A stretch of DNA of 59,402 bases. Origin: Flavobacteriaceae bacterium (GTDB taxonomy: Bacteria > Bacteroidota > Bacteroidia > Flavobacteriales > Flavobacteriaceae). The stretch spans positions 1-59,402 of the forward strand of contig JAHEMY010000005.1 of NCBI GenBank assembly GCA_024643425.1. The letters are read 5' to 3'. The translations under genes were made by a program, and so were the position numbers. Within the stretch, counting starts at the first letter, position 1. Each line of letters starts with the position of its first letter. This document shows positions 1-33,188 of the stretch, in pieces. The notes below the pieces were generated by a model. It saw only the letters and a list, made by a program, of their open reading frames with translations. It was not told the origin of the DNA and ran no database searches.

Positions 1-1017
1 AGCGAGCATCATATAACCCAATTGAGACATGGTAGAATACGCCAAGACTCTTTTAATATCGGTTTGGGTCACGGCAATTATCGCAGCGAATAATGCAGAG
101 AAAGCACCTACATATGCGACTATATTCAAAGCAAACCCATCTTCCACAAAATAATACATGGGGAACAATCGCGCGACTAAGAATACCCCGGCGACCACCA
201 TGGTTGCCGCGTGAATTAAAGCCGAAACAGGAGTGGGTCCTTCCATGGCATCGGGCAACCAAATGTGCAATGGGAACATCGCCGATTTCCCCGCACCTCC
301 TATAAAAATAAGTATGAGTGCCCAAGTAATGGCCGATAAACCCATAAAGGATGTTGCCCCCCAATTTAGGATGGCACTGCCTTCAGGGTTGGTTAAGGAT
401 TGGAAGTCGTAGGTTCCTGTGTAATACCCCATCATCAAAATTCCGATTAGGAATCCTAGGTCAGCAAAACGGGTCACAATAAATGCTTTTTTTGCCGCTG
501 CCACAGCAGTTGGTTTGGTATAATAATACCCAATGAGTAAGTATGAAGAAACCCCGACTAATTCCCAAAACATATAGATCTGGAATAAATTGGTGGCAAG
601 AACTAATCCGTACATTGAAAAAGTAAACAACCCTAGAAATGCATAAAACTTCGTATAGCCTTCATCTCCTTTCATATATCCTTGGCTGTATATATGTACC
701 ATCAAGGAGACTACAGAAACCACAATCAACATCATTACTGAAATGGGATCGATGAGGATTCCCATGTCTATTTGCAGGGTCTCGGTAAAATGCATCCATA
801 CAGTGCTGGAAACAAAAGTCTGATAGACTCCGTCCAATTTTCCATGAACGAAAAAGTATTGATAGGCGGTTACAAACGACAATACCGTTGAGATCAATAG
901 ACCCAACGTTCCAATATACCCGGAAATAGGAGGGTTAATCCTTTTATAGAACACACCCAGCAACAGAAAAACTGCTAAGGGGATCAAGGGAATCGCAAAA
1001 ATGTAGTTCAAGTCCAT
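1..1017 (-). CDS. nuoL: NADH-quinone oxidoreductase subunit L, N-terminal part (runs off left edge)
   Basis: This is the large antiporter-like proton-pumping membrane subunit of complex I. The ATG is at 1017-1015 and 339 codons stay open to the left edge, so about half of the usual 600-plus residues is present. The translation is a chain of hydrophobic helices. It contains the NuoL/Mrp-antiporter signatures around MFWELVGVSSYLLIGYY, the lysine-containing stretch GGAGKSAMFPLHIWLPDAME, and PTPVSALIHAATMV. It is the last visible gene of the nuo operon and follows nuoK with a 4-base gap. Any nuoM and nuoN would lie outside the window. Confidence 0.95.
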   Translation of the reverse strand, partial: MDLNYIFAIPLIPLAVFLLLGVFYKRINPPISGYIGTLGLLISTVLSFVTAYQYFFVHGKLDGVYQTFVSSTVWMHFTETLQIDMGILIDPISVMMLIVVSVVSLMVHIYSQGYMKGDEGYTKFYAFLGLFTFSMYGLVLATNLFQIYMFWELVGVSSYLLIGYYYTKPTAVAAAKKAFIVTRFADLGFLIGILMMGYYTGTYDFQSLTNPEGSAILNWGATSFMGLSAITWALILIFIGGAGKSAMFPLHIWLPDAMEGPTPVSALIHAATMVVAGVFLVARLFPMYYFVEDGFALNIVAYVGAFSALFAAIIAVTQTDIKRVLAYSTMSQLGYMMLA

Positions 1018-1021: not shown

Positions 1022-1339
1022 TTAGTACTTCATGGTTTCAATATCCTTTACTTCAACAGCGCTAATTTGCCGGTAAAGGCTAATAATAATTGAAACCGCC
1101 AATGCTGTTTCGGCTGCTGCCACCGCTATAATGAATATTGCGAAGACGACGCCTTCTAACATGTCGGGATATAAATATTTGTTGATTGCCACAAAATTCA
1201 CCACCGATGAATTGAGAATTAATTCAATGGAAATTAATATGGAAATCAAATTTTTTCGTGTAATGAAGCCATAGACACCAATGAAAAATAAGAGGGTCGT
1301 CACCGTAAAAATCTCATATATACTTACTCCTGGTATCAT
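1022..1339 (-). CDS. nuoK: NADH-quinone oxidoreductase subunit K
   Basis: Small membrane subunit of complex I, 105 aa, the usual family length, with three predicted transmembrane helices. Two membrane-buried glutamates typical of NuoK are visible: one in the ISIELILNSS segment and one in AVAAAETALAVSI. These belong to the central hydrophilic axis that couples quinone reduction to proton pumping. Its start overlaps the end of nuoJ by 4 bases (1336-1339), which suggests translational coupling. Confidence 0.95.
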   Translation of the reverse strand: MIPGVSIYEIFTVTTLLFFIGVYGFITRKNLISILISIELILNSSVVNFVAINKYLYPDMLEGVVFAIFIIAVAAAETALAVSIIISLYRQISAVEVKDIETMKY

Positions 1340-1860
1340 GGTTGTTTGGTTTCAGAATTTGATGTAAGGGTTCCTTTTGCCAGAATGATCGCGCCTACCA
1401 TGACTGCCAATAATAAAATACTAATCACTTCAAAAGGCAAGATGAATCCTCCTTCTTCATAACTCAATAATTTGGAGCCAATGTCGTGGGTAGAAGTTGT
1501 GGTTTGATTCCCAATTACTTGAAAATCGTGCATATAGATGGTGTACAAGAAAACCCCAAGTCCTGCCAAGCATAGCAATCCGGTTGCCAATTGCTTCGGA
1601 AATTTGGCAATCTCCAATTCAAGTTCGATATGGTGAACCAGTAATACCGAAAAGATGATAAGTACCACAATCCCACCTGCATAAACCGTAAGTTGAATGG
1701 CTGCTAAGAAATTGTAATCCATCATAAAATAAACTCCGGCGATACTGCAAAGAACAAACAGCAAATAAATAACCGACCGAAGCATTTTTCTGCTAATCAC
1801 AGAAGCTAATGCGAATACGATGGCAATTATGGCGATTACGTAAAACAGAATTCTTTCCAT
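1336..1860 (-). CDS. nuoJ: NADH-quinone oxidoreductase subunit J
   Basis: Membrane subunit of complex I, 174 aa, with five hydrophobic segments. The segment QLTVYAGGIVVLIIFSVLLV matches the conserved third helix of NuoJ, which contains the pi-bulge region. The C-terminal tail (TLTSNSETKQP) is short and hydrophilic. It lies 4 bases after nuoI and overlaps nuoK by 4 bases, so it is part of one tightly packed operon. Confidence 0.94.
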   Translation of the reverse strand: MERILFYVIAIIAIVFALASVISRKMLRSVIYLLFVLCSIAGVYFMMDYNFLAAIQLTVYAGGIVVLIIFSVLLVHHIELELEIAKFPKQLATGLLCLAGLGVFLYTIYMHDFQVIGNQTTTSTHDIGSKLLSYEEGGFILPFEVISILLLAVMVGAIILAKGTLTSNSETKQP

Positions 1861-1864: not shown

Positions 1865-2341
1865 TTAATCTTCTACGCCCGCCCTTACTTTGGATCCGGG
1901 TTTATTCAACACTCTCGTTAATTTGGTTCTATCGTATACAGAGTTTTCAAAATTTTGCCCCCATTTTATAGCATCTGTTGGACACGCATCAATGCAGAGT
2001 CCGCACATAGTACACAAGCTTAAGTGGTAGACAAATTTGTCGATCTTTTTCTTTTTCTTTCCGGTCTCCTCGTCGATTCCTCGGTCCCAAATAATTTCGA
2101 TGGAACCGTTGGGACATGCGATTTCACATTTTTGGCATCCTGTGCAGGTATGTTCGTTATTTTCATCGTGAGGCATGATTACTTCACCTCTAAATCGGTC
2201 GAACATTTTTAAGGTGTCACGGTTATCCGGATACTGTTGGGTAATCGCTCCTTTTCGAGATTTTAAAAAATATCCGCCGGTAACCTTCATCCCTGTGAGT
2301 AAGGTTTTGATTCCGTTATATATGTCTGAGAAATAACTCAT
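1865..2341 (-). CDS. nuoI: NADH-quinone oxidoreductase subunit I (2[4Fe-4S])
   Basis: Peripheral-arm ferredoxin-like subunit that carries clusters N6a and N6b. It is 158 aa with two CxxCxxCxxxCP motifs: CTGCQKCEIACP near residues 61-72 and CTMCGLCIDACP near residues 111-122. In canonical complex I this subunit receives electrons from NuoG and passes them to NuoB. Since nuoE, nuoF and nuoG are absent from this operon, NuoI is the likely entry point for electrons from an external donor such as ferredoxin (inference). It sits 5 bases after nuoH. Confidence 0.95.
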   Translation of the reverse strand: MSYFSDIYNGIKTLLTGMKVTGGYFLKSRKGAITQQYPDNRDTLKMFDRFRGEVIMPHDENNEHTCTGCQKCEIACPNGSIEIIWDRGIDEETGKKKKKIDKFVYHLSLCTMCGLCIDACPTDAIKWGQNFENSVYDRTKLTRVLNKPGSKVRAGVED

Positions 2342-2346: not shown

Positions 2347-3411
2347 TTAAAACTTAAGGGTTAGATTACCCCATACTAAAAGGGCCATCAACACAATATT
2401 CACAAGGTTGATTGGTAACAGGTATTTCCACTCCAAGGTTAAAAGCTGATCGACGCGTAAGCGAGGAAATGTCCATCGAAACCACATCATCAAGAAAACC
2501 AAAACAAAGGTTTTCATGAGAAACCAAAAAACGCCGAGCCAGGGCAAGGATTCGGTAATTCCAAAAGGCGACAACCATCCGCCAAAAAAGACCGTAGTTG
2601 CAATGGCGGCGATAAGAAACATATTAATGAACTCGGCTAAAAAGAAATAGGCGAATTTCATTCCCGAGTATTCCGTGTGGAATCCCGCTCCAAGTTCCGA
2701 TTCGGCCTCTACCATATCAAAAGGTGCTCGATTGGTTTCAGCTGTACCTGCAATCATATAAATCATAAAAGCAATTATGGCCGGAATATGTCCTTGAGCG
2801 ATAAGCCATCCCTCTTTTTGAACTTCAATAATTTCAGAAAGTTGTAAACTTCCGGTAAGTAATATCATGGTAAGCAATGAAAGTCCCACGGAGAGCTCAT
2901 AACTTATGGTCTGGACACCACTTCGCATGGCCCCGATCAAGGCAAATTTGTTGTTGCTGCTCCATCCTCCCAGCAAAATTCCAATAACTCCAATGGAGGA
3001 AACAGCAATCAAGAAAAAGATTCCAATGTTAATATCGAATGCCTGAAATTCTCTTGAAAATGGAATTACGGCAAGCGCCATAAGCGCGGAAATAATTACG
3101 AAATACGGGGCAAGATTATACAGAAACTTATCGGCTCGATCGGTTCCTGTAAGCTCCTTGGAAACTAATTTTAAGGCATCGGCCATGGTTTGCAACAATC
3201 CTTGATACCCAACTCGATTGGGCCCAACACGAAGTTGAAACCAAGCGGCTACCCTTCGCTCTAATAAGACTAAAAACAAACCCAATACGGCAAATATGGT
3301 GAGGTAGACAAGTGCAATAAGTACCATCTCCACGCCACTCGCTACACTGGGATTCATGGCGCTAAAAAGCCACTCGTGAATTGTTTTTGTAATGCTTAAA
3401 GGCACATTCAT
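2347..3411 (-). CDS. nuoH: NADH-quinone oxidoreductase subunit H
   Basis: Membrane subunit at the junction with the peripheral arm; it contributes to the quinone-binding channel. It is 354 aa with about eight transmembrane segments. NuoH signatures are visible: ERRVAAWFQLRVGPNRVGYQ near the N-terminus, and ETNRAPFDMVEAESELGAGF with HTEYSGM in the middle, the acidic loop that lines the E-channel. It starts 10 bases after the nuoD stop. In complete 14-gene operons nuoE, nuoF and nuoG lie in exactly this position, and none is present here. Confidence 0.96.
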   Translation of the reverse strand: MNVPLSITKTIHEWLFSAMNPSVASGVEMVLIALVYLTIFAVLGLFLVLLERRVAAWFQLRVGPNRVGYQGLLQTMADALKLVSKELTGTDRADKFLYNLAPYFVIISALMALAVIPFSREFQAFDINIGIFFLIAVSSIGVIGILLGGWSSNNKFALIGAMRSGVQTISYELSVGLSLLTMILLTGSLQLSEIIEVQKEGWLIAQGHIPAIIAFMIYMIAGTAETNRAPFDMVEAESELGAGFHTEYSGMKFAYFFLAEFINMFLIAAIATTVFFGGWLSPFGITESLPWLGVFWFLMKTFVLVFLMMWFRWTFPRLRVDQLLTLEWKYLLPINLVNIVLMALLVWGNLTLKF

Positions 3412-3421: not shown

Positions 3422-4543
3422 TTAGCGGTCAATATCCGGTATTACCAGATCTAGTGTTGCCATGGTTGCTACCAGATCACCAATCTTTCCTCCTACGGTT
3501 ATATGATTAAGGAGCGACAGGTTTGAAAATCCCGGTGATCTAAATTTTAACCGATAAGGATTCTTCGTTCCTGTGCTTATAATATAAACTCCCAATTCAC
3601 CTCTTGCCGTTTCAACCCTTTGATAGAACTCGCCTTTAGGCAACTTAATCACCGCATTGGTGGCCACGCGATGCTCCCCTTCAGGAATGTTATCAATGAG
3701 TTGTTCGATAATGGATAACGACTCCCACAATTCGGCAATACGCACTTTGTAGCGTGCAAAAGTATCTCCGGCTGTTTCGAGGCATTCATTAAATTTCACT
3801 CGATCTAAGGCACTGTAGGGATGGTGTTTCCTAACATCGCATGAATAACCCGAACCTCTTCCCACAGGGCCGGATGCGCCAAAAGAAATTGCATCTTCTT
3901 TTGAAAGTATTCCTACGCCTTGTGTTCGTTTTTGAAAGATCACATTATCGGTAAGCAGGCGATCGTATTCAGGGATTTTTGTTTTGAAATGTGTTATAAA
4001 AGCTTTCACCCTATTCACGAAATTGGGATGGATATCGTACATCAATCCTCCGGGAACATTATAATTCATCGTGAGCCTTGCCCCGCAGGTTTCTTCCATG
4101 ATATCGTTAATCATTTCACGATCCCTGAATCCATAGAAATAAGTGGTAAGGGCTCCAACATCCATTCCCATCACACCCCACCAAAGACAATGGGAGGAAA
4201 TGCGGGTAAGTTCACCAATAATGGTACGAATTACTTTTACACGATCCGGAATCTCGAGCTCCAATGCATTTTCTACCGCAAGACAAACCGCTTCGTTATT
4301 GATGTTTGCAGAGAGGTAATCCATTCTATCGGTTAAATGAACGATTTGCTGGTAGCTGTCGCGTTCACACATCTTTTCAATGGATCGATGGATATAGCCC
4401 AAGTCGGGTTCCACTTTTTTTATAATTTCCCCGTCAATAGTTAACAACAACCGCAGCACACCATGTGTGGCCGGATGCTGAGGACCCATGTTAATAAAAT
4501 ACTCCTCAGATTTAAAGTTGTTGTTGGCGATGACGGTTTCCAT
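3422..4543 (-). CDS. nuoD: NADH-quinone oxidoreductase subunit D
   Basis: The 49-kDa type subunit that forms the quinone-reduction site with NuoB; it is related to the large subunit of NiFe hydrogenases. It is 373 aa and close to full length. The N-terminal quinone-site motif MGPQHPATHGVLRL, the segment MNYNVPGGLMYD, and the C-terminal LVIPDIDR ending (where the hydrogenase Ni ligands have been lost) are all visible. It is a separate gene, not fused to nuoC, and lies 6 bases after nuoC. Confidence 0.96.
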   Translation of the reverse strand: METVIANNNFKSEEYFINMGPQHPATHGVLRLLLTIDGEIIKKVEPDLGYIHRSIEKMCERDSYQQIVHLTDRMDYLSANINNEAVCLAVENALELEIPDRVKVIRTIIGELTRISSHCLWWGVMGMDVGALTTYFYGFRDREMINDIMEETCGARLTMNYNVPGGLMYDIHPNFVNRVKAFITHFKTKIPEYDRLLTDNVIFQKRTQGVGILSKEDAISFGASGPVGRGSGYSCDVRKHHPYSALDRVKFNECLETAGDTFARYKVRIAELWESLSIIEQLIDNIPEGEHRVATNAVIKLPKGEFYQRVETARGELGVYIISTGTKNPYRLKFRSPGFSNLSLLNHITVGGKIGDLVATMATLDLVIPDIDR

Positions 4544-4549: not shown

Positions 4550-5011
4550 TTATTTAATAATCATATTAATTTCATCCTCATAATCCTTTCGCAAGGGATA
4601 ACCTTCCCATTCTTCGGTCATAAATATGCGTTTCATGTTTGGATGGTTGTTAAATTGAATTCCAAAGAAATCATATACCTCACGCTCATGAAATTCGGCC
4701 GTAGCCCAAATATCCGAGACGGTATCTATGGTTGGGTGTTCACGATCTTCTGTTTGAACCTTTACCACAATGTTATGACGATGGATGGTCGACTCCAAAT
4801 GATAAACCACTCCCAATGCTTGGCCCCAATCTACTCCTGTTAAGCAAAACAGATAGTCGAAATGGGTTTCCGGAGTTTCCTTCAATTTTCGCATCAAATC
4901 ATGGAGCTTCGCAGGGACCACCGTAATCGTAAGAAATTGGGAGCCTTCTTCGGTGCATTCGATTTCAGGAACCCAGGAGGTAATTAGTTGCTGTAGTGCT
5001 TCATTTGTCAT
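4550..5011 (-). CDS. nuoC: NADH-quinone oxidoreductase subunit C
   Basis: The 30-kDa type subunit of the peripheral arm, which stabilises NuoB/NuoD. It is 153 aa. The family signature is clear: the [20 protein letters not shown] segment followed by LRKDYE near the C-terminus. Its start overlaps the end of nuoB by 4 bases (5008-5011). Confidence 0.94.
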
Positions 5012-5583
5012 GATTCCTCTTTGTAATATCCTTCGTCAAATCCTTCAATAGGATTCTTTTTATGTTTTAAACTTTCGGTCCGAATTTTATCCTGCAGCAT
5101 CAACATTCCTTGCAACAAAGCCTCAGGCCTTGGGGGACATCCGGGCACATATACATCAACCGGAATCACATGATCTGCTCCCTTCACCACCGAATAGGAA
5201 TTATAAAAAAACGGTCCTCCCGAAATGGCGCAGGCACCCATAGCAATAACGTACTTAGGTTCGGCCATTTGGTCGTATAGGCGACGCAGCACAGGAGCCA
5301 TTTTATTTACGATGGTCCCTGCAATGATAATTAAATCGGCTTGTCGAGGGGATGGTCTGGCTACTTCAAAACCAAAGCGAGAATAATCGTGTCGTGCCGC
5401 TCCTGTTTGCATCATTTCAATCGCGCAGCAACTGGTCCCAAAATATAAGGACCATAAAGAATTGGCTCGTCCCCAGTTAATAATTTTATCCAAAGATGTC
5501 ACCACAATATTGGCTCCATTTCCTGCGGGAATTACATCACCGGGAAAATCCTCCGGAACTTTATATGTACTATCTACTCCCAT
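5008..5583 (-). CDS. nuoB: NADH-quinone oxidoreductase subunit B
   Basis: Subunit that carries cluster N2, the last Fe-S centre before quinone. All four N2 ligands are present: the tandem cysteines in [10 protein letters not shown], the one in [10 protein letters not shown], and the one in [13 protein letters not shown] prefer the ATG at 5583 (MGVDSTYK), which gives 191 aa. An ATG seven codons upstream at 5604 (MEKRRIE) would lengthen the overlap with nuoA from 10 to 31 bases. Both starts keep all ligands. It belongs to the kor-nuo operon. Confidence 0.95.
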
Positions 5584-5930
5584 TTCAATGCGCCTTTTTT
5601 CCATGCATAGAGCAACCCAAGACCGAGTATCCCTAGGAAGATTATTATTTCAATGAGGGCAACAGATCCAAAAGATTTAAATACCACTGCCCAGGGTACC
5701 AAGAATGCAATTTCCACATCAAAAATGAGAAATAAGATCGCGAAGAGGTAATAGCCCACTTTGAATTGAACCCAAGTAGCACCAATGGTTTTCATTCCAC
5801 TTTCATAGGGTTCTCGTTTTTGAGCATTATCCGATTTGTGAGAGATTAGGTTCGACAAGAAATTGGCGCCCGCTACCAGAACAATTCCGGCTATCAAAAA
5901 CACTAAAATGGCTTCGGTTCCCATGGTCAA
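5574..5930 (-). CDS. nuoA: NADH-quinone oxidoreductase subunit A
   Basis: Membrane subunit of complex I, 118 aa with three transmembrane helices. The conserved loop [20 protein letters not shown] and the second helix [20 protein letters not shown] are typical of NuoA. It begins only 5 bases after the korB stop, so the complex I genes seem to be co-transcribed with the 2-oxoacid:ferredoxin oxidoreductase genes. No separate promoter can fit in the gap. Confidence 0.95.
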
Positions 5931-5935: not shown

Positions 5936-6949
5936 TTAATGAACTTCATACGTATCTCCTGAGAAGAACAAATCATCTGTTTTATGGAAGGAAGACTTTG
6001 CTTTCACTTGCTCCATGGATTCATTCTCCCGCTGCTCAAAAGTGATGTCCTTATACATTCTTATAATACCAGTGACGATTGGGTCCTGCATGCGCACCAA
6101 CATTTGGTGTAATGTAGGATCGGATTCTGTGGCGTCATGCACCAAAATATCAGCTTCTGTAACACCGTTCTCTCCAATGGTTGCTACCTCGAGTTTCAAT
6201 TTATTTAGAATTAATCCTTTATTTCGGTCTGTTCCGAAAATCATGGGTTTTCCATGTTCCACATACAGTTGCTTGTCGGCTCTTACGGCCTTGTCGGTAA
6301 ACTGTGAATACGCTCCATCATTGAAAATGGGGCAATTCTGCATGACCTCAATTAAGGATGTCCCTTTAAATTTTTCAGCGTCTATAAAGATCTCTGTCAT
6401 TTCCTTTGGAGTGTTTCCTCCAATGCGCGCAAAAAATCGTGCTTGAGCACCTATTGCCAATTCTCCTGCGGAAAAAGGTGGCTGGGTATTTCCATAGGGA
6501 GACGACTTCGTCTTTTGTCCTACCAGCGATGTTGGTGAAAATTGGCCTTTCGTAAGTCCGTAAATTTTATTGTTAAATAGGATAATATTCAAATCGATGT
6601 TTCGGCGCAAGACATGAATAAAGTGGTTCCCTCCAATTGCCATAGAGTCTCCATCTCCTGTAATGACCCATACACTGAGGTCGTTATTCGCTAATTTCAC
6701 TCCCGAAGCTATCGCTGGAGCTCTCCCGTGGATGCTATGCATCCCATACGTATTCATGTAGTAAGGAAAACGCGAGGAACATCCAATTCCCGATATAAAG
6801 ACGACATCCTTTCGGTCTATTCCCATTTCGGGTAATGCCTTTTGAACTGATCTCAAGATCACATAGTCGTCGCAACCGGGGCACCATCGAACTTCCTGGT
6901 CACTTTCAAAGTCTTTGTAGCTATATTTTTTTTCGGCTGTTGTTTCCAT
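5936..6949 (-). CDS. korB: 2-oxoacid (2-oxoglutarate):ferredoxin oxidoreductase, beta subunit
   Basis: Thiamine-diphosphate and [4Fe-4S] subunit that decarboxylates 2-oxoacids and reduces ferredoxin. It is 337 aa. The four likely cluster cysteines are C23 and C26 (WCPGCDDY), C57 (GIGCSSR) and C206 (QNCPIFN). The TPP motif runs from GDGDSMAIGG (98-107) to FNN (125-127). It belongs to the two-subunit KorAB class without its own ferredoxin domain, so it needs an external ferredoxin. It follows korA by one base and precedes nuoA by 5. 2-Oxoglutarate is the likeliest substrate from family resemblance, but another 2-oxoacid is possible. Confidence 0.93.
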   Translation of the reverse strand: METTAEKKYSYKDFESDQEVRWCPGCDDYVILRSVQKALPEMGIDRKDVVFISGIGCSSRFPYYMNTYGMHSIHGRAPAIASGVKLANNDLSVWVITGDGDSMAIGGNHFIHVLRRNIDLNIILFNNKIYGLTKGQFSPTSLVGQKTKSSPYGNTQPPFSAGELAIGAQARFFARIGGNTPKEMTEIFIDAEKFKGTSLIEVMQNCPIFNDGAYSQFTDKAVRADKQLYVEHGKPMIFGTDRNKGLILNKLKLEVATIGENGVTEADILVHDATESDPTLHQMLVRMQDPIVTGIIRMYKDITFEQRENESMEQVKAKSSFHKTDDLFFSGDTYEVH

Positions 6950-6950
6950 A

Positions 6951-8807
6951 TCACTTGAGTAACTGTTTAAACTTCTCCATCAATTCGGCATTACCAAATG
7001 GCAAGCCTTGTATTTTATTAAATTGAATGAGTTCGATATCGTTAAATTTCATGCGCAATAAATTCGCAAACTGCCCCCCGTTTAACTCACAGACCACAAT
7101 TTTCTTGAATTGCTTTAATAAGGTCTCTGTATTTTTGGGCAATGGGTTGATGTAGTTGAAATGAGCATATCCAATTGAATCATAGCCTTCCTCATTCATA
7201 TGTTTTACGGCAGAGTGAAGGGACCCGTAAGTACCTCCCCATCCTACAACGAGTAAGTCGCCGCTAGTGGCAAATTCAGTAGTAATTTCAGGGATATAGT
7301 CTTGTACCCTTTTAATTTTTTCAGCCCGAATCTTGGTCATATATTCATGATTCTCAGGTACGTAGGACACATTTCCGCTCACGCGATCTTTTTCCAAACC
7401 GCCAACTCGATGCTCCAACCCGGCAGTTCCGGGAATGGCCCAATTTCGAGCTAGGGTCGCATCGTCACGATCGTAGGGATGCCAATTTTCGGTGGCTTTT
7501 GAAATGATTCGGTTATTGATTGGTGGCATATCTTCCGTCGAAAGAATTTTCCAAGGAGCCGAACCATTTGCTATGTACCCATCGGTTAATAAAATCACAG
7601 GGGTCATATGCTCTAAAGCCAGTTTTGAGGCTTCATAAGCATAATTAAAACAATTGGAAGGAGTACTTGCCGCAATCACAATTACCGGGCTTTCTCCATT
7701 TCTACCATACAGTGCCTGCATAAGATCGGATTGTTCTGTTTTTGTGGGGAGCCCTGTAGAAGGTCCACCCCGCTGAACATTTACAATGACTATAGGTAGT
7801 TCAATCATCATGGCGAGTCCGATGGCTTCCCCTTTCAAGGCGAGCCCAGGTCCGGAAGTAGTGGTTATTGCCAAATCGCCTGCAAAGGAAGCTCCAATGG
7901 TAGAAGCAATTCCTGCGATTTCGTCTTCAGCTTGAAATGTTTTAACGCCAAAGTGTTTATGTTTGGCCAGTTCGTGAAGAATATCGGAAGCAGGAGTAAT
8001 TGGATAAGACCCTAAGAACAATTCCAAGCCCGATTTTTCAGCAGCAGCCAAGAAGCCCCATGCCGTTGCAGTGTTTCCCATTATAATGCGGTAGGTTCCC
8101 GGATTCATTTTGGCCGGGGAAATGGTGTATGCATTGGGAATTAACTCTAAGGTCTCTGCATAGTACAAACCGGTATTGAGAACTTTGGTATTGGCCTCTA
8201 TGATGTTGGGTTTGGATGCAAATTTCTTTTCAAAAAATTCAATGGTATGTGCAGGAGAACGATCGTACATCCAGTAGACCATTCCTAAGGCAAACATGTT
8301 TTTGGTTCGAGTAATCGATTTATTATCTAGGCCTTCAATATCCTTTAATGCCTCTTTGGTAAGGGTGGTCATTTCCACTTCGATCACCCTATAATTAGAC
8401 AAACTTCCGTCGTCTAAGGGATTACTTTCGTAGTGGGCCTTTTCTAGATTCTTTTTGGTAAAGGAATCGGTATCCACGATAATGGTGTGGCCCGGCTTCA
8501 CCGCATACAAATTTGTTTTTAGGCCGGCCGGATTCATGGCCACCAATAGATCCACTTCATCTCCGGGAGTGCTTATCTCTACACTACCAATATGAACTTG
8601 AAAACCCGAAACTCCGTACAAGCTTCCTTGAGGAGCCCGAATTTCGGCAGGATAATTAGGAAAGGTTGCAATATCATTTCCAAACATGGCCGAGGTATCC
8701 GAAAATTGAGTTCCGGTTAGCTGCATTCCATCGCCTGAATCTCCAACAAATCGGATGACAACGGATTCCAGTACTTCGGCAAGATTATTCAGTTTTGAAT
8801 TCGCCAT
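6951..8807 (-). CDS. korA: 2-oxoacid (2-oxoglutarate):ferredoxin oxidoreductase, fused gamma-alpha subunit
   Basis: 618 aa, with the N-terminal gamma domain (RFVGDSGDGMQLTGTQFS, about residues 19-36) fused to the alpha/pyrimidine-binding domain that begins near residue 240. The second domain has GSYPITPASDILHEL and the conserved TTTSGPGLALKGEAIGLA. It binds the 2-oxoacid and TPP together with KorB. It is the first gene of the kor-nuo transcription unit. A good Bacteroidota-type -7 element (TATCTTTG, minus strand at 8879-8872) lies about 65 bases upstream. Confidence 0.93.
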   Translation of the reverse strand: MANSKLNNLAEVLESVVIRFVGDSGDGMQLTGTQFSDTSAMFGNDIATFPNYPAEIRAPQGSLYGVSGFQVHIGSVEISTPGDEVDLLVAMNPAGLKTNLYAVKPGHTIIVDTDSFTKKNLEKAHYESNPLDDGSLSNYRVIEVEMTTLTKEALKDIEGLDNKSITRTKNMFALGMVYWMYDRSPAHTIEFFEKKFASKPNIIEANTKVLNTGLYYAETLELIPNAYTISPAKMNPGTYRIIMGNTATAWGFLAAAEKSGLELFLGSYPITPASDILHELAKHKHFGVKTFQAEDEIAGIASTIGASFAGDLAITTTSGPGLALKGEAIGLAMMIELPIVIVNVQRGGPSTGLPTKTEQSDLMQALYGRNGESPVIVIAASTPSNCFNYAYEASKLALEHMTPVILLTDGYIANGSAPWKILSTEDMPPINNRIISKATENWHPYDRDDATLARNWAIPGTAGLEHRVGGLEKDRVSGNVSYVPENHEYMTKIRAEKIKRVQDYIPEITTEFATSGDLLVVGWGGTYGSLHSAVKHMNEEGYDSIGYAHFNYINPLPKNTETLLKQFKKIVVCELNGGQFANLLRMKFNDIELIQFNKIQGLPFGNAELMEKFKQLLK

Positions 8808-8871: not shown

Positions 8872-8879
8872 CAAAGATA
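8872..8879 (-). promoter_or_regulatory. Putative -7 promoter element for the korAB-nuo operon
   Basis: TATCTTTG on the minus strand matches the Bacteroidota -7 consensus TAnnTTTG and leaves a leader of about 60 bases before korA. No clear TTTG -33 box is seen, only TTTC at roughly the right distance. It is the only good promoter candidate before korA, and gaps between the following genes are 0-10 bases. Confidence 0.5.
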
Positions 8880-8974
8880 GATTCCCATTTTAAAAAGAAA
8901 GCTGACTTTTATCACATTTGAAACCCAAAATGAAATTTACATTTACATCCATTAACCAGTAAAACCCTGTAAGG

Positions 8975-9325
8975 ATGGCTATCATGATAACCGATGAATG
9001 CATTAACTGCGATGCCTGTATATCAGAATGTCCGAACAATGCAATCTACGAACCCGATCAAGAATGGTCGTATTCCGACGAAACCGCCCTTAGTGGCACA
9101 GTGACAACTCCCTATGGAAAAGAAGTGGATGCTGAAGCAGAAAACGAACCTATTTCCGATGAGTTTTACTTTATTGTAGCCGATAAGTGTACGGAATGTA
9201 AAGGATTTCACGACGAGCCACAGTGTGCCTCTGTTTGCCCTGTAGATTGTTGTGTTCCGGATACCAATCACGTGGAAGCCGAAGATTTTCTTTTGAAAAA
9301 GAAAGCTTGGTTACACGGGGAATAA
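8975..9325 (+). CDS. 2[4Fe-4S] ferredoxin (Alvin/YfhL-like)
   Basis: Low-potential electron carrier, 116 aa. The first cluster motif is C9-C12-C15-C19 (CINCDACISECP). The second is the spaced form CTEC(KGFHDEPQ)CASVCP, with C72, C75, C84 and C88 plus C92/C93, as in Allochromatium vinosum-type and YfhL ferredoxins. An acidic insert of about 35 residues (31-65) separates the halves. It is divergent from korAB-nuo and precedes nifJ, so it is the obvious candidate to shuttle electrons from KOR and PFOR to the truncated complex I (inference from context). Confidence 0.92.
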   Translation: MAIMITDECINCDACISECPNNAIYEPDQEWSYSDETALSGTVTTPYGKEVDAEAENEPISDEFYFIVADKCTECKGFHDEPQCASVCPVDCCVPDTNHVEAEDFLLKKKAWLHGE

Positions 9326-9354
9326 TAGAAACCAATCATTCAACCTGACCTTTT

Positions 9355-9387
9355 GAAAAGCGGGCTAATTCGTTAGCCCCGCTTTTC
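9355..9387 (+). terminator. Rho-independent terminator after the ferredoxin gene
   Basis: A 14-bp stem from GAAAAGCGGGCTAA pairs with TTAGC(C)CCGCTTTTC with one bulged C and a TTCG loop. A short T-rich tail (CTATTTTCTT) follows. It separates the ferredoxin from nifJ, so nifJ probably has its own promoter. Confidence 0.8.
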
Positions 9388-9487
9388 TATTTTCTTCATC
9401 TCCTAAAATAAAGTATGGTTTGGATCGAATAGCATCCAACCATCTTTCCAAGTACCTGATAATCTTGTTTTTTACTCCTAAAAAATG

Positions 9488-9500
9488 ATATGCGTCATAT
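9488..9500. promoter_or_regulatory. Palindromic operator candidate upstream of nifJ
   Basis: ATATG-CGT-CATAT is a perfect 5-bp inverted repeat with a 3-base spacer, 70 bases before the nifJ start. The 245-base gap between ferredoxin and nifJ holds only the ferredoxin terminator and this site. It could bind a dimeric regulator; the regulator is unknown and the repeat is short, so chance is possible. Confidence 0.25.
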
Positions 9501-9570
9501 ATTTTCACGGGTACTATTTCTACTTTCAACTACTTATTCTAACTCGATTTTTTAACAAAACCCAAGTGTT

Positions 9571-12500
9571 ATGGAAAAAGATTTCCAAAAGCTTATCTGC
9601 GATGCGAATGAAGCGGTCGCCAGAGTAGCTCACAAAACCAATGAAGTCTGTGCGATTTACCCAATCACACCTGCTTCTCCGATGGGTGAACATGTTGATG
9701 TTTATAGTTCCAAAGGACAGAAAAATATATGGGGAGACATCCCTAGAATTGTGGAAATGCAAAGTGAAGGAGGGGCTGCCGGAGCTGTTCACGGATCCTT
9801 ACTTGGCGGTGCTTTAACCACCACGTTCACAGCGTCCCAAGGACTCCTTCTCATGATTCCTAACATGTACAAAATTGCAGGGGAATTACAGCCCACTGTG
9901 ATTCACGTGGCCTCAAGAACGGTGGCCACCCATGCTTTATCCATATTTGGAGACCATTCCGATGTTATGGCAGCCCGACAAACAGGTTTTGCCTTATTAT
10001 TTGGTGGATCCGTACAAGAAGCACAGGATTTTGCACTCATTACTCAAGTAGCCACCTTAAAATCAAGGATTCCATTCCTTAATATTTTTGACGGATTTAG
10101 AACTTCCCATGAAATATCGAAAATCGATGCTATTTCTGATGCAACCATAGAGGCAATGATGCCGGAAGATAAAATTATGGAGCATAAAAAACGATCCTTG
10201 GATCCAGATCATCCTACTATTAAAGGAACTTCTCAAAATCCGGATGTGTTCTTTCAAGCACGGGAAGCGGCCAACCAATATTATGAAAAGGTCCCTGGCA
10301 TCGTAAAAGAGACCATGGACGAATTTTACGCACATACAGGTCGCAGGTACCTCCCTTTCCAATACATAGGTCATCCGGAAGCGGAAAAAGTAATAATCAT
10401 AATGGGAAGCGGACAAGGCCCTGTTATTGAAGCGGTGGATACCATGGTGAAAAATGGTGAAAAAGTAGGAGCTATTTTAGTTCGACTATACCGTCCGTTC
10501 TCGGTAAAACATTTTATTGAAGCATTACCAAAAAGTGTAACTAAGGTGGCGGTTCTTGACCGAACCAAAGAACCCGGAAGTGCCGGAGAACCCTTGTACC
10601 TCGATGTAGTTACTGCATTTGTAGAAAGTGAAAGAACCACGCCAAAAATTATTGGTGGGCGTTACGGGCTCTCTTCAAAAGAATTTGATCCTGCGATGGT
10701 GAAAGCCATTTTTGATGAGTTGGACAAAGAAAAACCTAAAAATCATTTTACCATAGGTATTAATGATGATGTGTCGCATACCAGTTTAACAATTGGTGAT
10801 CGACTTCATACCGTTAAAACAACTTTTAACTGTATGTTCTATGGATTGGGATCTGATGGTACGGTTGGAGCCAATAAAAACTCCATTAAAATTATCGGAG
10901 AAACCACCGATAACTACGTACAAGGTTACTTTGTATACGACTCGAAAAAAGCCGGGGCACAAACCGTATCGCACCTTCGATTCGGACCCGAACCCATTCA
11001 TTCGACTTATTTAATTCATCAAGCCGATTTCATTGCTTGTCATCAATTTAATTTCATAGAAAAATACGACCTCTTAAAAAACATAAAAAAAGGAGGAACT
11101 TTCTTATTGAATGCTCCTTTCTCAAAAGATGAGATTTGGGATCGACTGCCTATGAAAATGCAGGAAGAAATTATTGAAAACCAATTGGATTTCTATGTGA
11201 TCGATGCCACGGCAGTGGCGCAAAAGGCCAAGCTTGGAAAACGAACCAATACTGTCTTGCAAACCTGTTTCTTCGCAATTTCAGGGGTACTTCCTAAAGA
11301 AGAAGCAATCCAAAAAATTAAGGATGCTATCGTGAAATCCTATGCCTATAAGGGAGATAAGGTAGTGAAGATGAATTTCCAAGCCGTAGACACTGCGTTA
11401 GCCAATTTGGAGAAAGTAGACTACCCCGATGTTGTCACAAGCCATGAAGCATTAAAGCCTGTCATGCATTCTGAATCCGATCCTTTCGTTCAAGAAGTGT
11501 TGGGTAAAATATTAGCAGGGCAAGGGGATAGCCTTCCTGTAAGTGCCTTCCCAATTGACGGAACATTTCCTACGGGAACTACCCAATTTGAAAAACGAGG
11601 CATTGCCGATTTCATTCCAGTTTGGGACGATACCGCACTTTGTACGCAATGCAACAAATGTGTTGCCATTTGTCCGCATGCCGCCATTAGAGCAAAAGTG
11701 GTTCCCAATTCAGAATTAGTGGGAGCACCGAATTCACTTAAAACGGCCCCTGCCATTGGCCGACCTTTTACCAGTGAAACCGATTCGTACATCTTACAGG
11801 TTTCCCCTGAAGATTGCACCGGTTGCGATTTATGTGTCGCCGTTTGTCCTGCTGAGAGTAAAGAAATTGCCAATTTCAAGGCCATCAACATGCATAAGAA
11901 ACTGGAGGTAGAAGTCGAAGAGGATGTGAACTGGGATTATTTTGCTCAATTGTCTAATTACGACAGAACGGCCCTTCAGATTACAAACATGAAAGGATCG
12001 CAATTTCTTGAGCCATTGTTTGAATTTTCAGGAGCTTGTTCCGGATGTGGAGAGACCCCTTATATTAAATTGTTGACCCAATTGTATGGTGATAGCATGT
12101 TAATAGCGAATGCAACCGGATGTTCTTCCATTTATGGAGGAAATCTTCCAACAACTCCTTATAAGAAAAATGATGCCGGCCGTGGACCAGCTTGGGCAAA
12201 TTCGTTGTTTGAGGATAATGCGGAATTTGGTTTGGGAATGAAACTCGCATTAACTAAAAAGCAAGAAATCGCTGTGAGTTTACTCCAATCTTTAGAAAAA
12301 GAAGTTGGATCGGACCTTGTTGAAGCTATTTTAAATAATGCTGAAGAAAACGAATCACAAAAAGCAACCAAGAATTCAGATATTGAACGTTTGAAAGAAC
12401 GACTTCAAGGTCTGCTATCGAATAAGAGTGCTAAGAAATTGAATGAGCTCACCGAATACCTACGAAAAAAAGCAGTTTGGATTGTTGGGGGTGATGGTTG

Positions 12501-13104
12501 GGCTTACGATATTGGATATGGCGGTGTAGATCACGTCTTGGCTTCCGGTGAGGACATAAATATCATGGTATTGGATACTGAAGTGTATTCAAATACCGGT
12601 GGACAGACATCGAAAGCAACCCCATTGGGTGCGAGTGCCAAATTTTCGGTATCAGGAAAACGAACCGGTAAAAAAAGTTTGGCGTTGCAGGCAGTTTCCT
12701 ATCAGAATGTCTATGTAGCCCAGGTTGCCATTGGCGCCAAAGATATACAAACCCTTAAGGCCATTGAAGAGGCAGCAGCCTATCCGGGGCCTTCAATCAT
12801 CATCGCATATTCACATTGTGGAGAACATGGATATGATTTAAAAAACGGAGCCTTACAACAAGCCAAAGCAGTCGAAACAGGTTATTGGCCGTTGTTTAGA
12901 TTCGACCCTTCAAAACCGAAAGGCAAAAAGTTCAAATTAGACTCTAAAGAACCAAGTGCACCGCTTCGCGATTTTATGTACAACGAAACTCGTTTTACAC
13001 GCGTAGTGAAAGAAGATGCTAAGCTTGGGGAGGCTCTGTTGAATCAAGCCCAAGAAGAAGTGCAGTCGAAATGGGAACGTCTCGAACTTTATCGGGACAT
13101 GTAA
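9571..13104 (+). CDS. nifJ: Pyruvate:ferredoxin (flavodoxin) oxidoreductase
   Basis: Single-chain enzyme that converts pyruvate and CoA to acetyl-CoA, CO2 and reduced ferredoxin. At 1177 aa it is full length. Visible in order: the N-terminal YPITPASPMGEHVD motif; the gamma-like domain; two 4Fe-4S motifs (CTQCNKCVAICP from residue 691 and CTGCDLCVAVCP from 749); the cysteines of GACSGCGETPY and ATGCSSIYGGN near residues 826 and 851 that hold the proximal cluster; and the TPP segment VGGDGWAYDIG with EVYSNTGGQTSKATP. No frameshift is seen. It gives the cell a second source of reduced ferredoxin beside KorAB. Confidence 0.97.
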   Translation: MEKDFQKLICDANEAVARVAHKTNEVCAIYPITPASPMGEHVDVYSSKGQKNIWGDIPRIVEMQSEGGAAGAVHGSLLGGALTTTFTASQGLLLMIPNMYKIAGELQPTVIHVASRTVATHALSIFGDHSDVMAARQTGFALLFGGSVQEAQDFALITQVATLKSRIPFLNIFDGFRTSHEISKIDAISDATIEAMMPEDKIMEHKKRSLDPDHPTIKGTSQNPDVFFQAREAANQYYEKVPGIVKETMDEFYAHTGRRYLPFQYIGHPEAEKVIIIMGSGQGPVIEAVDTMVKNGEKVGAILVRLYRPFSVKHFIEALPKSVTKVAVLDRTKEPGSAGEPLYLDVVTAFVESERTTPKIIGGRYGLSSKEFDPAMVKAIFDELDKEKPKNHFTIGINDDVSHTSLTIGDRLHTVKTTFNCMFYGLGSDGTVGANKNSIKIIGETTDNYVQGYFVYDSKKAGAQTVSHLRFGPEPIHSTYLIHQADFIACHQFNFIEKYDLLKNIKKGGTFLLNAPFSKDEIWDRLPMKMQEEIIENQLDFYVIDATAVAQKAKLGKRTNTVLQTCFFAISGVLPKEEAIQKIKDAIVKSYAYKGDKVVKMNFQAVDTALANLEKVDYPDVVTSHEALKPVMHSESDPFVQEVLGKILAGQGDSLPVSAFPIDGTFPTGTTQFEKRGIADFIPVWDDTALCTQCNKCVAICPHAAIRAKVVPNSELVGAPNSLKTAPAIGRPFTSETDSYILQVSPEDCTGCDLCVAVCPAESKEIANFKAINMHKKLEVEVEEDVNWDYFAQLSNYDRTALQITNMKGSQFLEPLFEFSGACSGCGETPYIKLLTQLYGDSMLIANATGCSSIYGGNLPTTPYKKNDAGRGPAWANSLFEDNAEFGLGMKLALTKKQEIAVSLLQSLEKEVGSDLVEAILNNAEENESQKATKNSDIERLKERLQGLLSNKSAKKLNELTEYLRKKAVWIVGGDGWAYDIGYGGVDHVLASGEDINIMVLDTEVYSNTGGQTSKATPLGASAKFSVSGKRTGKKSLALQAVSYQNVYVAQVAIGAKDIQTLKAIEEAAAYPGPSIIIAYSHCGEHGYDLKNGALQQAKAVETGYWPLFRFDPSKPKGKKFKLDSKEPSAPLRDFMYNETRFTRVVKEDAKLGEALLNQAQEEVQSKWERLELYRDM

Positions 13105-13130: not shown

Positions 13131-13505
13131 ATGAACGACCAATCGCGTGAATTTTTTGATAAGGCCTATGCCAAACTAAGCGAAGCAAATAAAGAACTTT
13201 ATCGCCCGGAAGAAGACATTGTCTCATTCTTGGTGTGTAAAAATGCTCAATTTGCTGTCGAGAATTACCTCAAGGGGTATCTTCTGAAAAATGGTATTGA
13301 CGTTGCGCCTTACAAAACCATCGACACCCTCTACAAAGAATGTGTCCGCATTAACAAGCGCTTTGAGAAAGTAAATTTGAATGAGTTTACTTGTCAACGC
13401 ATTGAAAGCGGAGCCAAGTATTGCAATGAAGTTCCTAAAGTGAGCCACTGCTTTCATGCAGCCAATCACTTAGATACTTTCTTGCGAGAGGAAAATGTTC
13501 TTTAG
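13131..13505 (+). CDS. HEPN-domain-like protein
   Basis: A 124-aa, mainly helical soluble protein that starts 26 bases after nifJ and is probably co-transcribed. The segment KNAQFAVENYLKGYLLKNGI followed by TIDTLYKECVRINKRFE resembles HEPN domains (paired helices with an AxE-x-YLK-like surface). The RNase signature Rx4-6H of toxic HEPN proteins is not obvious, and no nucleotidyltransferase (MNT) partner lies beside it. The role is unknown. Proximity to nifJ suggests an accessory function, but this is only context. Confidence 0.6.
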   Translation: MNDQSREFFDKAYAKLSEANKELYRPEEDIVSFLVCKNAQFAVENYLKGYLLKNGIDVAPYKTIDTLYKECVRINKRFEKVNLNEFTCQRIESGAKYCNEVPKVSHCFHAANHLDTFLREENVL

Positions 13506-31580: not shown

Positions 31581-33188
31581 TTACACCAAAGGACCTCCTG
31601 AAAGGATTGCCTCACTGGCATACTCTTCGAACTTTTTAAAGTTTTCTTTGAACGAATCGGCAAGTTTCTGAGCTGTCTTGTAATAGCCTTCATCGTTGTT
31701 CCATGTCTGTCTTGGGCTCAATACAGAAGTTGGCACATTCGGACATGTCCTTGGCTGATGCACTCCAAATACAGAATGCACGTGATAATTATCTTTATTA
31801 GCCTCTTCCAACGAACCGTCCATGGCTGCCGTAATCATGGCTCTTGTATATTTTAGTTTCATACGTGATCCAACGCCATAAGGTCCTCCGGTCCAACCGG
31901 TGTTTACCAACCAAACATTAACCCCCGATTTCTGCATCTTTTCACTTAACATTTCAGCATACACGGTTGGATGTAAAGGCATAAATGGAGCGCCAAAACA
32001 AGCAGAAAAACTTGGAACAGGTTCATCGATACCGGCTTCCGTCCCTGCAACTTTAGCCGTATAGCCACTAATAAAGTGGTATGCAGCCTGCCCCGGGGTA
32101 AGCTTTGAAATTGGAGGCAACACACCAAAAGCGTCTGCTGTTAAGAAAAATATATTTTTTGGATTTCTTCCGATGGAAGGGACTTGAATATTATCAATGT
32201 GATCCAATGGATAACTTACACGTGTGTTTTGCGTAATCGAAACATCTGCAAAATCAACTTCTCCTTTATCGTCCATAATCACGTTCTCTAGGATAGCCCC
32301 AGGCTTGATAGCGCGATAAATGTCAGGCTCATTTTCTTCCGAAAGATTGATCACTTTCGCATAACACCCTCCTTCAAAATTAAATACCGTATTCTCTTCT
32401 GTCCATCCGTGTTCGTCGTCACCAATTAGTTTTCGGTTTGGATCTGCCGATAAAGTGGTTTTTCCCGTTCCTGATAATCCAAAGAAAATCGCGGTGTCTC
32501 CATCTTCCCCAACATTGGCAGAACAGTGCATAGGAAGCGTATTTTTAAAGACCGGTAGAATAAAATTCAATGCAGAAAAAATTCCTTTTTTGATTTCACC
32601 GGTATAACCGGTTCCTCCGATAATGGCTATTTTCTTGGTGAAATTTAAAATCGCAAAATTATGTTGTCTCGTTCCATCACGTTCAGGGTCTGCCATAAAT
32701 CCGGGGGCATTTACAATAAGCCACTCTGGGTTAAAATTGACAAGATCCTTTTGCTCTGGTCTCAAGAACATATTGTAGGCAAATAAATTACTCCATGGGT
32801 ATTCATTTACCACCCGAATATTTAATTGATAATTAGGATCTGCACACGCATAACAATCTCGAACATAGACTTCTTTTTCAGATAGATAATCCACTACACG
32901 GTTATAAAGCGCATCGAATTTATCCACATCGAAAGGAATGTTGATATTCCCCCACCAAACGCGATCTTCGGTAATAGCATCTTTTACAATAAAACGATCT
33001 TTTGGTGATCTTCCTGTGAATTCCCCTGTATTAACAGCCAAAGCTCCACTACTTGCTTCTAATCCTTGACCTTTTTCTAATGTTTCTTGATGTAATTGCT
33101 CTGAACTAAGCTGATACTTCACTTGGGCATTTTTTATTCCATAAGCCTCAAGCGAAATCGTTTTCGTAACTTGATCGTTATCTACCAT
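31581..33188 (-). CDS. pckA: Phosphoenolpyruvate carboxykinase (ATP)
   Basis: Converts oxaloacetate and ATP to PEP and CO2 for gluconeogenesis, or runs in the CO2-fixing direction. 535 aa, normal length. The kinase P-loop GLSGTGKTTLSADP and the metal-binding LIGDDEHGWTE are visible. Substrate-binding FTGRSPKDRFIV is near residue 55, and MPLHPTVYAEML, NTGWTGGPYGVGSRM and RAMITAAMDGSL follow. It stands alone between the hemD terminator and its own promoter. Confidence 0.97.
   Translation of the reverse strand: MVDNDQVTKTISLEAYGIKNAQVKYQLSSEQLHQETLEKGQGLEASSGALAVNTGEFTGRSPKDRFIVKDAITEDRVWWGNINIPFDVDKFDALYNRVVDYLSEKEVYVRDCYACADPNYQLNIRVVNEYPWSNLFAYNMFLRPEQKDLVNFNPEWLIVNAPGFMADPERDGTRQHNFAILNFTKKIAIIGGTGYTGEIKKGIFSALNFILPVFKNTLPMHCSANVGEDGDTAIFFGLSGTGKTTLSADPNRKLIGDDEHGWTEENTVFNFEGGCYAKVINLSEENEPDIYRAIKPGAILENVIMDDKGEVDFADVSITQNTRVSYPLDHIDNIQVPSIGRNPKNIFFLTADAFGVLPPISKLTPGQAAYHFISGYTAKVAGTEAGIDEPVPSFSACFGAPFMPLHPTVYAEMLSEKMQKSGVNVWLVNTGWTGGPYGVGSRMKLKYTRAMITAAMDGSLEEANKDNYHVHSVFGVHQPRTCPNVPTSVLSPRQTWNNDEGYYKTAQKLADSFKENFKKFEEYASEAILSGGPLV

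Follow-up and report, generated by a model that had tools for sequence, protein, structure and literature searches.

Why would an oxygen-respiring flavobacterium keep a pyruvate:ferredoxin oxidoreductase (PFOR) and a ferredoxin of its own beside a complex I operon? We addressed this question in a 59,402-nucleotide stretch of Flavobacteriaceae bacterium DNA (contig JAHEMY010000005.1 of assembly GCA_024643425.1; contig C169 in our numbering), here called the window. Its source genome (G000) comprises 2.74 Mb in 201 contigs and is 96% complete and 3.8% contaminated. Ferredoxin and PFOR genes lie on the plus strand, and korA-korB-nuoA-B-C-D-H-I-J-K-L run divergently from them on the minus strand. 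We consider, with a probability of roughly 0.72, that the locus is a conserved flavobacterial low-oxygen ferredoxin:quinone respiratory module. PFOR, acting on pyruvate, and KorAB, most likely acting on 2-oxoglutarate, would reduce the dedicated 2[4Fe-4S] ferredoxin, and the ferredoxin would donate electrons at the peripheral arm of a complex I without an NADH module. That complex would reduce quinone and pump ions, the quinol passing to terminal oxidases, while NADH from pyruvate dehydrogenase (PDH), 2-oxoglutarate dehydrogenase (OGDH) and the remaining reactions would go to Na+-NQR. The corresponding site in some other genera is occupied by Rnf, likewise an ion pump that oxidises ferredoxin. 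A Crp/Fnr-family activator, most likely the FNR-like product of a gene close to the cbb3 oxidase in relatives, would turn on kor-nuo, the ferredoxin gene (fdx) and PFOR from sites centred at about -41.5. As this regulon would be common with cbb3 oxidase, the module probably operates when oxygen is low. The genes concerned are as follows.

8975..9325, plus strand: 2[4Fe-4S] ferredoxin of the YfhL family (fdx), the PFOR/KOR-linked paralogue, 116 residues with ten cysteines; NCBIfam NF033683, 95.1 bits (cut-off 86)
9356..9387, plus strand: intrinsic terminator in the fdx–PFOR gap, a G+C-rich hairpin plus T-run, position approximate
9571..13104, plus strand: PFOR, class A, 1177 residues; TIGR02176, 1740 bits (cut-off 911), profile positions 3–1163 of 1167
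6951..8807, minus strand: korA, fused gamma/alpha 2-oxoacid:ferredoxin oxidoreductase; TIGR03710, 647 bits (cut-off 483); best solved relative 6n2n
5936..6949, minus strand: korB, thiamine pyrophosphate (TPP)-binding beta subunit; best NCBIfam match TIGR02177, 238 bits, below the cut-off of 262; TPP_enzyme_C over cut-off
5574..5930, minus strand: nuoA (PF00507)
5008..5604, minus strand: nuoB (PF01058)
4550..5011, minus strand: nuoC (PF00329)
3422..4543, minus strand: nuoD (PF00346), with nuoH directly next
2347..3411, minus strand: nuoH (PF00146)
1865..2341, minus strand: nuoI, with two 4Fe-4S motifs in its translation; named by gene order and cysteine motifs
1336..1860, minus strand: nuoJ, by translation and gene order
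1022..1339, minus strand: nuoK, by translation and gene order
1..1017, minus strand: nuoL, by translation, cut by the contig end

The sequence-only reading had described the ferredoxin, a full-length PFOR, the terminator between them and the adjoining divergent kor-nuo operon, and coordinates, profiles and fold bear this description out. The fdx–PFOR gap (9326–9570) folds more stably than every one of its 200 shuffled versions (z -3.65); a perfect-stem terminator scan did not pick up the bulged hairpin of the window. The PFOR carries the ligands for three [4Fe-4S] clusters (two CX2CX2CX3CP motifs, Cys 691/694/697/701 and 749/752/755/759, together with Cys 823/826/851 and 1083), matches the POR_N and TPP_enzyme_C domains and aligns lengthwise to the solved PFORs 6cin and 1b0p; it presumably uses pyruvate. 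Its alignment covers residues 5–1162 of the 1231-residue Desulfovibrio africanus enzyme (1b0p) and, ending there, indicates that the window PFOR lacks the C-terminal extension that protects D. africanus PFOR against oxygen. The second cluster motif of the ferredoxin is CX2CX8CX3CP (Cys 72, 75, 84 and 88).

The arrangement recurs. Among 80 loci retrieved through KorA, the ferredoxin gene is divergent from korA in 75 and is followed by a whole or partial PFOR in 46 (incomplete in five, of which four run into the end of a contig and L023 seems to be a remnant), so its occurrence in the window is not due to chance. By its KorA the window belongs to the Flavobacteriaceae, and the nearest KorA relative, from Flavobacteriaceae bacterium Ww87 (L007; 88% identity), has an identical gene order from open reading frame (ORF) o17909 to nuoK. 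We rejected the idea that PFOR is a recent acquisition or a binning error: L007 and others share the gene order and the neighbours on the far side. PFOR is missing from three loci (L022 around 9316–9522, L039:8802-9173 and L043:8806-9177), and in G091 a stop codon interrupts the gene about 99 residues in (L127:8819-12180), a pseudogene or an assembly error. Two loci with other taxonomic titles (L009, Chlorobiota; L037, Piscirickettsiaceae) carry the flavobacterial locus, nest within Flavobacteriaceae on the KorA tree and are probably mislabelled or misbinned.

The nuo genes fit an 11-subunit set: Pfam assigns A, B, C, D and H, the translations identify I, J, K and the stretch of L that is present, and M and N lie past the contig end. 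Only 10 bp separate nuoD from nuoH in the window, which means an operon without nuoE, nuoF and nuoG, and the spacing is at most 472 bp in all 55 KorA-retrieved loci having both genes. No NuoF over cut-off was found in the source genome (96% complete), in which NuoE and NuoG were not searched separately. Its sole NuoF-family match scores 376 bits against a cut-off of 558.65; this is a 455-residue frame that runs into the end of contig C119; next to it comes a 911-residue molybdopterin protein with a NuoG-like N-terminus, and the pair is probably an NAD-type formate dehydrogenase. In a sample of 149 Flavobacteriaceae genomes, one for each of 149 genera and the same throughout, NuoF exceeds its cut-off in a single genome (G111). 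We therefore rejected an NADH dehydrogenase function for nuo, NuoF over cut-off not having been found in the source genome. As to the other donor enzyme, korAB in L029, L050 (Aquimarina) and L051 (Lutibacter sp. B1) has neither nuo nor rnf close by but sucA/sucB-like genes (2-oxoglutarate dehydrogenase, by likeness), which hints that KorAB acts on 2-oxoglutarate, its most likely substrate.

We next consider how PFOR is distributed relative to ferredoxin-oxidising pumps. PFOR exceeds its cut-off in 43 of the 149 genomes and falls into two classes. Class A consists of 24 genomes with a one-piece match of 1701–1756 bits, plus G091, whose stop-broken PFOR (summed score 1399) was placed there by its kor/fdx/HEPN context; class B consists of the other 18 genomes over cut-off (summed 1047–1428 bits). 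The source genome and G131 have a second PFOR and are counted in class A only. A genome was scored as having a sink if it had NuoD and no NuoF above the cut-off, or if its RnfC exceeded the cut-off, so that G111, with its true NuoF, counted as having none; a NuoF-like match of 477 bits in G044 is below cut-off. Over the sample, fused KorA exceeds its cut-off in 26 genomes, NuoD in 18 and RnfC in 15. All 25 class-A genomes have a sink (nuo only in 13, rnf only in 8, both in 4), as against 3 of 124 others and 1 of 18 with class B only. Fused KorA is found in 23 of the 25 class-A genomes and in 3 of the 124 others, none of these three having a sink.

The ferredoxin follows the same division. Every genome has a match to the window ferredoxin (weak in G112, E 1e-28), and the linked type, at 75–91% identity to that of the window (which is itself counted), occurs in 24 of 25 class-A genomes and in none of the 124 others. 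The remaining matches shown have 61–70% identity; the second copy of the source genome (G000:C168:5828-6169) has 68%. G100 and G127 have the linked type only. The class-B PFOR of the source genome has 41% identity to its class-A enzyme and, at 1152 residues, lies on contig C154 (L092:221-6349) behind an OsmC-like gene and a regulator with cyclic-nucleotide-binding, PAS and sigma54-activator parts. An OsmC-like gene lies upstream in all five class-B loci that were read (L092, L129–L132), and the four of these from other genera have no ferredoxin sink nearby.

The exchange of nuo for rnf gives the strongest hint as to what complex I oxidises. Rnf is an established ferredoxin:NAD+ oxidoreductase, and its occupation of the place of nuo suggests that nuo also takes ferredoxin. 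Within 12 kb of korA in 88 loci (the 80 retrieved through KorA, the window and seven more), we found nuo in 65, rnf in 8 and neither in 6, with 9 not judgeable. The rnf operon lies convergently after korB, with at most one gene between, in L016, L030, L036, L067 and L082, and L048 is alike but cut by a contig end; in L120 (G095) and L121 (G105), which have no fused KorA over cut-off, rnf adjoins fdx-PFOR. On the best KorA tree, in which three long rows (L117, L124 and L126) are unsure, the rnf label takes six changes, at least two of them forced by well-supported branches. Two further loci, L114:4321-13959 (G031) and L115:4378-13605 (G116), encode a 1647-residue PFOR-like protein directly 5′ of rnfC-D-G-E-A; its C-terminal ferredoxin domain was scanned for G031, and no rnfB was seen in the stretch read of these two operons. 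RnfC over cut-off was not found in the source genome.

The same observations bear on whether there is a joint circuit at all. PFOR and KOR might supply ferredoxin for biosynthesis, with the EFG-less complex I fed by the NuoF-like subunit of formate dehydrogenase or by flavodoxin. The NuoF-like protein of the source genome does adjoin a probable formate dehydrogenase, and Moparthi and Hagerhall, as reported in the part of PMC11238625 drawn on here, could identify no donor common to every bacterium that has an 11-subunit complex. However, class-A PFOR occurs only with a sink (25/25), that sink may be Rnf, the established ferredoxin partner, and the ferredoxin gene is common to the nuo and rnf arrangements. 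Moreover, NuoF-family matches of any score occur in only 34 of the 149 genomes and are missing from a number of nuo genomes, among them G006, G034, G088, G091, G109, G112 and G117. We regard separate roles as very improbable. The comparison with relatives instead suggests that the donor of NADH-module-less complexes is ferredoxin.

The promoters of kor, fdx and PFOR carry the following elements.

8903..8914, between fdx and korA, serving both directions: Crp/Fnr-type palindrome TGACTTTTATCA
8872-8879, minus strand: kor -7 box CAAAGATA, 23 bp from the palindrome at 8903-8914
8938-8945: fdx -7-like box TACATTTA, 23 bp from the palindrome at 8903-8914
9486..9497, no strand assigned: Crp/Fnr-type palindrome TGATATGCGTCA, 23 bp upstream of the PFOR -7-like box
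9521-9528: PFOR -7-like box TACTTTCA, 23 bp from the palindrome at 9486-9497

In an alignment of fdx–korA gaps, the conserved block is the palindrome TGAYN4RTCA flanked by one -7-like box per direction. The palindrome is present in 68 of 76 such gaps (dinucleotide shuffles: mean 0.59, maximum 3/76), and the looser TGAN6TCA in 72 of 76. All 39 fdx–PFOR gaps longer than 100 bp contain the palindrome (shuffles: mean 0.64, maximum 4), each with TAnnTT exactly 23 bp after it, the other spacers tested (15–31) occurring at most once. Seven loci, from Gramella/Christiangramia, Salegentibacter and Salinimicrobium, have short fdx–PFOR gaps of 21–35 bp, none of which holds a palindrome (0/7); their divergent regions contain two or three, and in six of the seven one lies 23 bp from the kor -7 box. 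These results qualify the claim of the sequence-only reading that PFOR has its own control: it does have its own promoter behind the terminator, but the Crp/Fnr-type site there is of the same kind as that of kor and fdx, and in the seven short-gap loci fdx and PFOR are only 21–35 bp apart. PFOR, kor and fdx are thus probably under a common regulator.

We then defined the full architecture as the palindrome, a spacer of 22–24 bp and TAnnTT. It has 167 matches in the 24.4 kb of target gaps as against 57 in the remaining 1494.8 kb of the 80 loci, a remainder that includes the rnf promoters. Among relatives it is present in 66 of 75 divergent fdx–korA gaps and in 38 of 38 long PFOR gaps. It also precedes rnf in 6 of 9 cases, both PFOR–ferredoxin–rnf operons, the one lone nuo operon and kor in 2 of 3 cases without class-A PFOR, as compared with none of five class-B PFOR genes. 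In the window it occurs only at 8903-8914, in both directions, and at 9486-9497; about 126 kb of other contigs from the source genome contain it twice. A sigma-70-style promoter scan, the wrong promoter type for Bacteroidota, returned 10 matches where 10.7 were expected.

A class-II Crp/Fnr activator usually sits at -41.5. In Flavobacterium psychrophilum the -7 box has been mapped at -12 to -5, according to the portion of PMC9723704 available to us, and with a 23-bp spacer this puts the centre of the palindrome at -41.5. We found the architecture upstream of the cbb3 oxidase operon (ccoNO) in 4 of 4 cases from genomes without class-A PFOR. An Fnr/Crp-like gene lies near ccoNO in each of these four stretches; the three that were scanned have Fnr as their best NCBIfam match (100–103 bits, cut-off 228). 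Judging by eye, the protein keeps only an N-terminal CX2C of the known FNR cysteines. Universal-stress-protein-like genes (named by eye) in L134–L137 have the architecture in 4 of 4 cases, and in three of these four stretches a promoter region beside the ccoI-like gene has it as well. There is perhaps a wider low-oxygen regulon in Flavobacteriaceae that extends to genomes without class-A PFOR. The same portion of PMC9723704 reports that cbb3 oxidase rises in F. psychrophilum on oxygen limitation; together with the architecture shared by ccoNO, this makes it likely that the module is controlled by an oxygen-responsive Fnr-type regulator.

TGAN6TCA is also the common core of CRP, FNR and DNR sites, and the module could answer carbon starvation through a CRP-type site, or nitrogen oxides through a DNR-type site, instead of oxygen. 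Consistent with the former, a Crp/Fnr homologue of Flavobacteriales is placed in a MalR-like carbon-sensing group in the part of PMC8510549 consulted. We nevertheless judge such a signal unlikely, given that ccoNO is preceded by the same architecture in four of four genomes, near genes that best match NCBIfam Fnr (three scanned, below cut-off).

Use at low oxygen would also explain why PFOR coexists with the machinery of aerobic metabolism. Pyruvate and 2-oxoglutarate dehydrogenase genes, which the sequence-only reading had proposed to look for, are present in the source genome: PDH E1alpha and E2 on contig C170, PDH E1beta on C21, OGDH E1 and E2 on C29, and two further E2 proteins. NQRA is found in 147 of the 149 genomes, that of the window included, and COX1 in all 149, with two matches in the source genome. 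The earlier picture of PFOR as out of keeping with an aerobic lifestyle is therefore not supported; with the genes for PDH, OGDH, NQR and COX1 present, PFOR and KOR form an additional ferredoxin-linked branch. We rejected PFOR as a substitute for an absent PDH, because genes for E1 and E2 of both PDH and OGDH are there; the presence of genes for NADH-linked oxidation argues against such a replacement and not against the circuit. The PFOR/KOR branch is probably used at low oxygen, which is the best account of the contrast between aerobe and anaerobe.

With oxidation already provided for by PDH and OGDH, the branch might instead run in reverse. Complex I or Rnf would then reduce ferredoxin at the expense of ion-motive force, while PFOR and KOR would fix CO2 for anaplerosis as pyruvate and 2-oxoglutarate synthases. 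Both enzymes are established as reversible in principle, and the window encodes phosphoenolpyruvate carboxykinase, a reversible enzyme, at 31581-33188. The authors of the Lutibacter profundi genome also state, in the excerpt of PMC5219744 used here, that its PFOR may run in reverse. A promoter architecture common with cbb3 oxidase operons suits a respiratory role better, and we consider the reverse mode distinctly improbable.

The sequence-only reading had united PFOR, KOR, ferredoxin and complex I in one low-potential circuit; co-occurrence, the nuo/Rnf exchange and the common promoter site back this proposal at the level of gene content and promoters. Several points weigh against the module and its common control. 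Its parts are separable, as shown by genomes with fused KorA and neither class-A PFOR nor a sink (G030, G089 and G140), rnf genomes with class-A PFOR and no fused KorA over cut-off (G095 and G105), and genomes with a sink and no class-A PFOR: G031 and G116, which have the PFOR–ferredoxin–Rnf operon, and G101 (L119), with only rnfC-/rnfD-like genes in the stretch read. G112 has class-A PFOR, kor and nuo on separate contigs and no dedicated ferredoxin, and the six kor loci of 88 with neither nuo nor rnf have at least 8 kb of downstream sequence available. The Fisher value for class-A PFOR and sink (2e-25) treats related genomes as independent and overstates that independence; owing to kinship it is no true probability, and a better control is how class A differs from class B within one family. 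Nine of the 75 divergent regions lack the full architecture, as do three of the nine rnf promoters and one of the three kor cases without class-A PFOR. The window contains the bare palindrome 6 times against an expectation of 4.3, which is no enrichment, and exact TAnnTTTG boxes are a minority (19 for fdx at 22–23 bp, one for PFOR at 23 bp), most being the looser TAnnTT. As the motif was first picked in the fdx–korA alignment, only the PFOR, rnf and ccoNO promoters are independent tests of it. The candidate regulator and the cbb3 operon are known from relatives and were not located in the source genome. Finally, that the flavobacterial 11-subunit complex I oxidises ferredoxin is something we infer.

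How does this locus compare with known systems? Epsilonproteobacterial Nuo keeps altered NuoE/F-like subunits and uses flavodoxin, whereas the flavobacterial locus lacks three subunits and encodes a 2[4Fe-4S] ferredoxin next door. Rnf is likewise a ferredoxin-oxidising ion pump and sits in the same genomic place in other genera, but it is a different complex and reduces NAD+ instead of quinone. The OOR/flavodoxin-fed Nuo of Campylobacter and Helicobacter, which is mentioned in the part of PMC11238625 drawn on here, resembles the proposed module in that a 2-oxoacid oxidoreductase feeds a complex I without the normal NADH module. The same source treats the electron donor of the 11-subunit complex I as an open question and lists PFOR/ferredoxin among the candidates in Desulfitobacterium hafniense. 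That organism shares NuoABCDHIJKLMN without NuoEFG, and PFOR plus ferredoxin among the proposed donors; as described there, it differs in being a strict anaerobe, in having its donors proposed from protein co-expression and in carrying its ferredoxin genes away from the PFOR gene. The flavobacterial module is set apart by linked genes, a ferredoxin paralogue of its own, the exchange with Rnf and COX1 in all 149 sampled genomes.

A parallel within the family is Lutibacter profundi LP1. In the excerpt of PMC5219744 used here it has both PDH and PFOR, like the window genome, and both NQR and a complex I that its authors label NADH dehydrogenase, together with several oxidases including cbb3. Set against that label, 12 of 13 other Lutibacter loci have no more than 84 bp between nuoD and nuoH, leaving no room for nuoE, nuoF and nuoG, and the thirteenth has no such pair; the name 'NADH dehydrogenase' may be wrong for complex I of Flavobacteriaceae. 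Searches confined to one open library, judged by titles and the beginnings of abstracts, brought up no paper on the flavobacterial module, on the Rnf exchange, on the promoter site or on any HEPN-type protein that accompanies PFOR. Flavobacteria offer a natural experiment, the PFOR/KOR/ferredoxin set standing beside an 11-subunit complex I or beside Rnf depending on the genus, and the ferredoxin paralogue, the promoter signature and the nuo/Rnf exchange make the donor of complex I directly testable in cultured relatives. If the proposed module is real, oxygen-respiring members of the family would shift part of their central carbon oxidation from NADH to ferredoxin as oxygen falls.

The sequence-only reading had passed over the Crp/Fnr-type sites at 8903-8914 and 9486-9497, and also a small gene directly behind PFOR.

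13131..13505, plus strand: HEPN-like protein of 124 residues with five conserved cysteines (36, 71, 88, 98 and 107); Pfam HEPN, 22.0 bits at a cut-off of 22; 26 bp 3′ of PFOR

Relatives of this protein occur in 23 of the 149 genomes, directly behind class-A PFOR in 22 (of 25 genomes with class A). Among KorA-retrieved loci with room to see, a HEPN-like ORF follows full-length PFOR at 8–134 bp in 35 of 40, the loci without a match being L019, L021, L036, L070 and L082. A distant homologue in G031 (30% identity; three of the five cysteines kept, by eye) directly precedes the PFOR–ferredoxin fusion, and no HEPN-like ORF precedes the fusion in L115 (G116). Across 38 family members, Cys36, Cys71, Cys88 and Cys107 are invariant, Cys98 is present in 37, P26, E28 and D29 are also kept, and 36 match HEPN at E≤1. 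An AlphaFold2 model has a mean predicted local distance difference test (pLDDT) score of 80.3, with residues 87–99 (which include Cys88 and Cys98) below 50, and its first three Foldseek matches are HEPN structures (probability 0.99–1.00, E 0.098–0.24); a search of PDB sequences with the family profile gave no match (best E 0.26). With E-values of about 0.1 or more, a HEPN fold is likely rather than proven.

The predicted fold is shared with 1wol, the sacsin HEPN domain (3o10) and HEPN-MNT toxins, from which the family differs by its five conserved cysteines, an RPEED motif, linkage to PFOR, the lack of RX4-6H in 36 of 38 members and of a recognised neighbouring nucleotidyltransferase. The other two members have only RGFLLDH at residue 48, inside the second helix. 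We rejected a HEPN-MNT toxin, there being no RX4-6H, no such partner among the adjoining ORFs and no PADLOC match. From its position, the protein is a candidate PFOR accessory. It might bind a metal or Fe–S cluster (or form disulfides) and guard or repair the oxygen-sensitive, extension-less PFOR in an oxygen-respiring host, a tentative idea that we hold to be possible but doubtful. Seonamhaeicola has the intact gene in loci from which PFOR is missing (L039 and L043), which argues for a role not confined to PFOR; in L022, where PFOR is likewise missing, just the 3′ part of the HEPN-like gene remains.

Downstream of this ORF, on the opposite strand, are nfuA- and mrp-like genes (Fe–S assembly). 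Elsewhere in the window, 43233-44972 encodes a Porphyromonas-type peptidyl-arginine deiminase domain with a C-terminal sorting domain of the type IX secretion system (T9SS).

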